From positions 248,001 through 312,000 of the forward strand of contig JAFLYY010000001.1 of assembly GCA_029785825.1 (NCBI GenBank): DNA of 64,000 nt, in the 5' to 3' direction. This stretch comes from Nitrososphaerota archaeon. GTDB lineage: Archaea; Thermoproteota; Nitrososphaeria; Nitrososphaerales; Gagatemarchaeaceae. The first letter of the stretch is position 1; each line of letters begins with the position of its first letter. Shown piece by piece: positions 52,915-53,574 of this stretch. The translations under genes and the position numbers were made by a program. The notes under the pieces were generated by a model that was not told where the DNA came from, searched no databases, and was given only the letters and a program-made list of their open reading frames with translations.

Positions 52915-53055
52915 CGGGCCCGGTGCGATTTGAACGCACGACCTCTGCGAGCGCAGGGCTCACTACAGCTATCTTCGGGAGGATAGGAGGCTCGGTCTCG
53001 ACGAGTCTGCCGCGCTATCCGTACTTCGCTCGAAGACGATCTGCGCTACGGGCCC
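52915..53055 (-). tRNA. tRNA gene with long insertions (141 nt; isotype uncertain, perhaps Arg-CCU)
   Basis: On the minus strand GGGCCCG (53055-53049) pairs with CGGGCCC (52922-52916), with discriminator G. The T-arm GTGCG-TTCAAAT-CGCAC is perfect, and D-stem arms GCGC/GCGC are present. Between them the gene is about 65 nt too long. The D-loop holds a stable hairpin, CTTCGAGCGAAG. A CTCCTA loop flanked by CGAGC, with GCTCG further on, would give anticodon CCU, but it leaves an 8-nt variable region and extra bases after the D-stem. Probably a tRNA with two or three introns, or a degraded one. Confidence 0.6.
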
Positions 53056-53115: not shown

Positions 53116-53574
53116 TTATGTGCTGCTGACCAGGTCAAAATCCAGCTCCAGCTCCCTCTTGGAGTTCCTGAACCTCACCTTCCCAATGGCGATTCTCCCT
53201 ATCTGGAGGGTGTTGTCCACATGGGCTTCATTGCAGCAGTTTATGTTCCAGTCAGGGATCCTCGCTATCTTGAGAAGGGTGACCTCCGCAGGCACTGGAA
53301 AGAGGTCATAGATCGCATCTCCAAAGTGTCCCTCGGCCTCATGCCTCTCCATCTCGAACTCCAGCACCTCGGCCCCCTCGGCGACCTTCGCGTTGGCCAG
53401 CCGCTCTATCGTCGCCAGCTCTTCGTCGGTCGGCTTCCTTTCGAACTGTAGCGTGAGCCTTCCGTGCTTGCCGGACACGTAGACGGACGCCGTCCACTTC
53501 GCTCCAAGCGCCTTCTGGGCGGCTCCCTTGAGCACGTGGACAGCCGAGTGCGTCCGGAGCTCTTCCGAGCTCAA
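53116..53574 (-). CDS. AlaX-type alanyl-tRNA editing protein
   Basis: A 152-residue stand-alone editing domain related to the second additional domain of AlaRS and ThrRS. Zinc ligands are in H9-S-A-V-H13 (HxxxH) and C114-N-E-A-H118 (CxxxH), followed by N-T-L-Q-I-G. AlaX proteins hydrolyse Ser- or Gly-tRNA(Ala) made by mistake. The short length matches the small AlaX class. The TTG start sits directly behind the TAG of the geranylgeranyl reductase gene, so the two are translated from one message. Confidence 0.85.
   Translation of the reverse strand: MSSEELRTHSAVHVLKGAAQKALGAKWTASVYVSGKHGRLTLQFERKPTDEELATIERLANAKVAEGAEVLEFEMERHEAEGHFGDAIYDLFPVPAEVTLLKIARIPDWNINCCNEAHVDNTLQIGRIAIGKVRFRNSKRELELDFDLVSST

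Follow-up and report, generated by a model that had tools for sequence, protein, structure and literature searches.

A tRNA-Arg(CCU) gene of a soil thaumarchaeon that is probably interrupted by four short introns

Can a single archaeal tRNA gene be cut by four introns and still supply a normal tRNA? The question is posed by a locus in the window, the whole 64,000-nt stretch of DNA analysed here, for which an earlier note had proposed a tRNA gene carrying about 65 extra nucleotides. The reading favoured here, with a probability of roughly 93%, is that this locus, the one tRNA-Arg(CCU) gene detected in the genome, is cut by four short bulge-helix-bulge (BHB) introns and would be spliced to a normal AGG-reading tRNA. 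The host is a thaumarchaeon that belongs to or stands near Ca. Subgagatemarchaeum (GTDB f_UBA183, Gagatemarchaeaceae), since the relative G010 (SubAcS15-57) falls in the window's genus; the tRNA sequences of G010:C150 and JAPCJK010000098.1 are identical. SubAcS15-57 is placed by PMC10640624 in Ca. Subgagatemarchaeum, Group I.1c and f_UBA183, with an origin in acidic subsoil and an optimum of 39 C predicted in silico. By analogy with this relative, the host may be mesophilic.

The gene occupies the interval that had been assigned to it and is read from the minus strand, running from G1 at 53055 to position 73 at 52915 (Table 1). The earlier description of a perfect acceptor stem and T-arm and a D-stem that is present is borne out: all pairs of the acceptor stem (GGGCCCG/CGGGCCC) are intact, and the two strands of the D-stem (GCGC/GCGC) match perfectly. 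The surplus comes to 66 nt and is distributed over four blocks, as found both by a parsing script and by ortholog comparison, and a 75-nt cloverleaf is left when the four introns are taken out. ARAGORN identifies this spliced sequence as tRNA-Arg(cct), either with native flanks or with an added CCA, and returns no call for the unspliced precursor in the same two settings. The anticodon CCU, previously the best candidate, is given by the script and by ARAGORN on the spliced sequence. Arginine tRNAs are identified by A20, with G73 allowed, and the spliced sequence has A20 together with the permitted G73. The exons all lie in order inside 141 nt, so that the gene is neither split nor permuted. 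An AT-rich box stands at about the same upstream distance in orthologs, as judged by eye and without motif statistics. The ORF upstream of the tRNA shows weak similarity over residues 7-134 to part of proteins of about 900 aa, in a region that we take to be labelled as an AlaX-like editing domain.

Table 1. Features of the putative tRNA-Arg(CCU) locus, in positions of the window
Feature	Positions	Strand	Remarks
152-aa ORF upstream of the tRNA	53116..53574	minus	Syntenic anchor for the ortholog search
TATA-like box TTATAA	53081..53086	minus	26-31 nt upstream of G1; read by eye, without motif statistics
pre-tRNA-Arg(CCU) gene, positions 1-73	52915..53055	minus	141 nt; no CCA encoded
Intron 1, D-loop, 15/16	53024..53040	minus	17 nt; HBh'-like BHB
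Intron 2, anticodon stem, 30/31	52991..53006	minus	16 nt
Anticodon CCU (34-36)	52985..52987	minus	From the script and from ARAGORN on the spliced sequence
Intron 3, canonical position, 37/38	52971..52983	minus	13 nt; hBH-like
Intron 4, variable loop, 45/46	52943..52962	minus	20 nt
T-arm GUGCG-UUCAAAU-CGCAC	52923..52939	minus	Perfect; read by eye

Starting from the two ends of the gene, the script permits introns in the D, anticodon and variable regions but none in the acceptor stem or T-arm, and scores the fit to a cloverleaf and to BHB motifs. Because its weights were set by hand after the orthologs had been seen, it serves as a consistency check and not as a blind test. In the best solution, introns of 17, 16, 13 and 20 nt follow positions 15, 30, 37 and 45, the anticodon is CCU and the score is 26.6; a second parse of the D-loop scores 26.28. 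The several introns that had been suggested for a tRNA-Arg(CCU), non-canonical ones included, thus become three non-canonical introns and one canonical intron. The main run was limited to four introns, and four are still obtained when the ceiling is raised to five. No dinucleotide shuffle of the core reaches the observed score (0 of 300; best 17.48), and a solution of any kind is found for 31 of them, with four introns in 15, three in 14 and two in 2. When 15 orthologs are put through the script, 14 are solved and 13 of these match the comparison, the disagreement being in the D-loop of G023 and the unsolved sequence being L056.

The strongest evidence that the four blocks are introns is that each is cleanly dispensable in some orthologs. 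The orthologs were located by a protein search with the 152-aa ORF, which is followed by the same tRNA in relatives, and by a pattern search for the CCU gene, and were aligned by exon anchors into a table of 29 rows. The table contains some redundancy, as L058 has the sequence of G130, L054 has that of G107, and G009a and G174a share the tRNA of G013. The pattern search covered an even sample of 400 genomes from a larger group within the order and matches 24, all of them within the 31 genomes of this genus. The pattern is unmatched in the other 7 of these 31, several of which are incomplete, and its silence outside the genus says little because it fixes much of the exon sequence.

Of the 24 genomes with the locus, 7 carry all four introns (G000, G009, G013, G174, G012, G020 and G130), in five distinct sequences; public contigs with the four-intron gene include JAKAUC010000020.1, JAKACC010000061.1, JACWAI010000057.1 and JASHVT010000090.1. 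The 15/16 intron is absent from 10 of the 29 rows (G002, G107 and its twin L054, G006, G008, G011, G016, G019, G009b and G174b), the 30/31 intron from 17, the 37/38 intron from five (G002, G107 and its twin L054, G007 and L056) and the 45/46 intron from 16. The reduced sets consist of 15/16 and 37/38 only (G005, G001, G010, G023, G017, G022, G024, G085 and G162), 37/38 only (G006, G008, G011, G016, G019 and the second loci of G009 and G174), 30/31 and 45/46 only (G002 and G107), 15/16 with 30/31 and 45/46 (G007), and 15/16 with 45/46 (L056). At each of the four positions the missing intron leaves exons that are nearly identical. Across the orthologs the introns vary in sequence and length and the exons are almost invariant. 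Compensatory changes can be read by eye in the T-stem: some relatives have G-C for C-G at 52-62, and L056 has such a change at 50-64.

A gene tree of the neighbouring protein, made from 29 rows of which 24 are different and leaving out G174a, which has no protein, places the four-intron genes in three places, with 7 of its 21 inner branches well supported. This tree fits either an ancestral set of four introns followed by losses or a repeated arrival at four. Three side observations were made among the orthologs. L056 has C for U at position 33 (offset 2496; CCCCUAA), which may be a sequencing error, decay or a real C33. The MAGs G009 (L148/L165) and G174 (L147/L164) each contain one four-intron and one one-intron CCU gene, and are probably mixed assemblies, or else have a duplicated tRNA with different introns. 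G010 has a further copy of the opening 15 bp of the CCU gene some 700 bp upstream of the complete gene (offsets 1992 and 2695 on the reverse strand of L020), an arrangement that an element inserted at the 5' part of the gene might leave.

Four introns would exceed the upper range given in passages of six papers, which read 'a maximum of three introns' (PMC4033280), 'up to three introns' (PMC4390854), 'as many as three introns' (PMC3293823), 'two or even three' (PMC3218864), 'two or three' (PMC6379350) and 'two or three introns' (PMC8450103). A literature search over titles and the starts of abstracts brought no archaeal tRNA gene with four introns. Against this stands a passage of PMC11291895 (2024), according to which three Asgard genomes have 228 tRNA introns between them and more than half of the tRNA genes are multi-intronic. 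Four introns in one tRNA gene are therefore a probable record and not a certain one, and it is a serious, if minority, possibility that the gene is real and spliced while other tRNA genes with at least four introns exist elsewhere.

The pairing of the proposed introns agrees with the relaxed BHB classes hBH and HBh'. The H helix has three or four of its four pairs in all four introns, and an inner helix of three to four pairs is present in three. The motifs are assigned to the relaxed class because three of the four introns have one H mismatch; the strict hBHBh' motif would also have both flanking helices in full, which none of the four has. The 30/31 intron has three of four H pairs here, and all four in G020, G012 and L058, with the inner helix CUC/GAG. 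For the 45/46 intron all four H pairs are formed (CUGU/GCAG) and the inner helix is GAGC/GCUC. The 37/38 intron lacks an inner helix, uses the five pairs of the anticodon stem as its outer helix and has three of four H pairs, with a C34-A mismatch that is shared by each of the five distinct four-intron sequences and by G010; the intron of G006 at this position is nearly strict (H 4, inner 2, outer 5). From comparison alone the intron borders carry a register ambiguity of 1-2 nt. Alternative borders for the 37/38 intron were dropped because orthologs without it show the loop CUCCUAA. The relaxed classes are named in passages of PMC6379350, whose HBh' and hBH types the four introns resemble, and according to which introns of these types are efficiently removed only by (alpha-beta)2 and epsilon2 enzymes.

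The minimum-free-energy fold of the precursor does not contain the BHBs, with -56.5 kcal/mol versus -48.3 kcal/mol when three BHBs are enforced; the BHB structure alone has -37.8 kcal/mol in the same program, and the folding z of the precursor is -0.64. Since this program also fails to give a cloverleaf for the spliced tRNA, folding is a weak judge of the BHBs.

The block in the D-loop is the one most likely to be questioned, since the mature tRNA could keep it as a larger D-loop, and only three introns would then remain. It can fold into a compact hairpin, and its H helix has three of four pairs and no outer helix. In its BHB the block would form an inner helix (UCG/CGA) and also pair CGC/GCG. 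Retention is nevertheless given a slim chance, as the block is precisely missing from 10 of the 29 ortholog rows, whose D-loop then measures 10 nt, and as the block varies from 16 to 19 nt across orthologs with the AG before the cut kept. In addition, the best solutions of the script start a D-loop intron immediately behind nucleotide 15, the cut being preceded by AG, in five tRNA genes of this genome (L001, Asn; L096, CAU; L132, Arg-UCU; L134, Arg-CCU, the target; and L095, Ser-GCU), which makes this a recurrent insertion site. The CTTC-GAGC-GAAG hairpin pointed out in the earlier note can be drawn, but it is probably not the working pairing of the block, for which a BHB fits better. By eye, the orthologs vary the CUUC letters but keep the GCGA-type end. 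A BHB with CUUC/GAAG as a helix was also considered and was dropped because the D-loop that it gives appears in none of the 29 ortholog rows.

The gene is one that general tRNA searches overlook. In the window, ARAGORN calls one other tRNA and Rfam at its gathering thresholds matches two others, neither reporting the CCU gene. Across the genome Rfam gives 41 tRNA matches at E up to 10, and the gene is not among these either. The acceptor pattern GGGCCCGTAGC has eight matches in the genome: five Arg genes (UCU, CCU, GCG, CCG and UCG, each once), one Lys(UUU), one CAU tRNA and one non-tRNA. The CCU pattern has a single match. A second tRNA-Arg(CCU), which the earlier note had held would, together with a lack of expression here, mark this locus as a pseudogene, was not found in the genome by either the acceptor or the CCU pattern, searches that a gene with another acceptor or altered exons could escape. 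Of the 102 Arg codons in five nearby ORFs, 53 are AGG, more than for any other; a UCU anticodon could read AGG by wobble. That the locus is a decaying tRNA pseudogene with accumulated insertions, as its being missed by general tRNA finders and the presence of a tRNA-Arg(UCU) that could cover AGG might suggest, has a probability close to nil: neither broken stems nor lost conservation nor a redundant functional copy is found, all stems being perfect, the exons hardly varying within the genus, the T-stem showing compensatory changes, all four sites being occupied in 7 genomes and the gene being the sole one found here for CCU, which serves the commonest Arg codon of those ORFs.

A close counterpart is the tRNA-Arg(UCU) gene of the same genome (L132; G000:C1:193607, minus), which has nearly the same exons and three of the four intron sites (15/16, 30/31 and 45/46) and differs in its anticodon and in lacking the 37/38 intron. 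This gene, too, is outside the Rfam tRNA matches of the whole genome. A tRNA-Arg(UCU) pattern matches 10 of the 31 genus genomes, and the 37/38 intron is in none of these 10 genes. The two paralogs differ in intron content in other species as well. The UCU gene of G006 and G014 shares an identical 15/16 intron with the CCU gene of G022 and G024, which suggests that introns may be exchanged between the paralogs by conversion or transposition.

To place the locus in its genome, 37 tRNA genes were put through the script, an incomplete census in which one further Ile gene was left out. Solutions are obtained for 33 genes, 27 of which are best solved with one or more introns (L082 being unsure) and 7 of which have two or more; the target is the only one of the 37 with four. 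When two D-loop introns are permitted in a rerun of 12 sequences, one of which is unsolved, tRNA-Arg(GCG) L092 (G000:C1:635829, plus) is best parsed with four introns, in two tied parses. It contains a D-loop insert of about 58 nt and two more introns; when it is compared by eye with its sibling L002, the D-loop insert looks like one long intron, for a total of three, and L092 could still be a second four-intron gene in the genome. The tRNA-Ser(GCU) gene (L095/L197; G000:C1:1516494, minus) has three introns, one of them in the T-loop as read by eye. A count of four was rejected for it because its orthologs, also by eye, show a long variable arm. This tRNA was found in 24 other genus genomes with one to three introns and with T-loop inserts of very different lengths.

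Two other tRNA loci of the genome were recorded. At G000:C2:150895-151549, near the end of a 154-kb contig, there is a tandem array of five divergent tRNA genes (L006, L069, L082, L083 and L087), of which one is read as intronless, three are unsolved and one is unsure. The array contrasts with the scattered tRNA genes elsewhere in the genome and is possibly from a plasmid, a virus or a contaminant. Near a contig start, L100 (G000:C1:1192, minus) is a 3' tRNA fragment that has no evident 5' half and resembles the 3' end of the GAA (Phe) tRNA L093, a possible integration remnant.

The genome contains two tRNA_int_endo (PF01974) genes, at C1:698699 and C1:1415312, and an RtcB gene, a set that would fit a two-subunit endonuclease and a ligase. 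The catalytic triad of the tRNA splicing endonuclease is Tyr/His/Lys. One of the gene products matches solved archaeal tRNA-splicing endonuclease chains nearly end to end and keeps the residues around the catalytic Tyr, His and Lys, and the second endonuclease-domain protein is without the His. The top matching chains are presumably those of two-subunit crenarchaeal enzymes.

Sequence and comparison establish the four insertions, their borders to within 1-2 nt and an intact spliced tRNA. From these genes and from the pairings described above we infer that splicing occurs, by which enzyme and in which order. A two-subunit, (alpha-beta)2-type endonuclease would most likely excise each intron, and RtcB would join the exons into a normal tRNA for AGG. 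The non-canonical BHBs would occupy exon strands 10-13, 25-28 and 40-43, which are needed for the D-stem and anticodon stem, with the H strands of the introns standing in for the exon partners (GCAG for 27-30 and GCG for 22-24). The D-stem and anticodon stem could then not form until the 15/16, 30/31 and 45/46 introns have been removed. The 37/38 intron is predicted to be removed last because its BHB needs the finished anticodon stem as outer helix, which the BHBs of the other three would block.

Several described systems are comparable in part. The three-intron genes of Thermoproteales, pre-tRNA-Glu(UUC) of Pyrobaculum calidifontis and pre-tRNA-Pro(UGG) of P. islandicum in passages of PMC4390854, likewise combine several BHB introns, canonical and non-canonical, in one gene. 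They differ from the present gene in having three introns and not four, three of the four here being non-canonical, and in belonging to hyperthermophilic crenarchaea and not to a soil thaumarchaeon. The earlier note had associated multi-intron tRNAs mainly with Thermoproteales; the multiple introns stand, but the host does not belong to that group. Multiple non-canonical tRNA introns of the BHB type are described for Thaumarchaeota, the same phylum, in part of the tRNAscan-SE 2.0 paper (PMC8450103), with two or three per gene versus four here. Atabeyarchaeia and Freyarchaeia, as presented in passages of PMC11291895, are also soil archaea in which most tRNA genes are interrupted, often at non-canonical positions, and they belong to a different phylum from the host.

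The full proposal has several parts: a first described four-intron tRNA gene, present in five sequence versions in one genus of soil archaea, whose introns come and go and whose stand-ins for stem strands would force an ordered splicing that ends with the intron of the anticodon loop. Taken as a whole, it is evenly balanced between being right and being wrong. The four-intron gene would push up the stated limit of tRNA gene disruption, and dense non-canonical tRNA introns would not be confined to hyperthermophiles. General tRNA searches can miss such genes, so that AGG may wrongly be reported as having no cognate tRNA. As introns are present and absent within one genus at four sites of a syntenic gene, and at 15/16 and 30/31 also in a close paralog, the gain, loss and transfer of archaeal tRNA introns may be directly tracked here.
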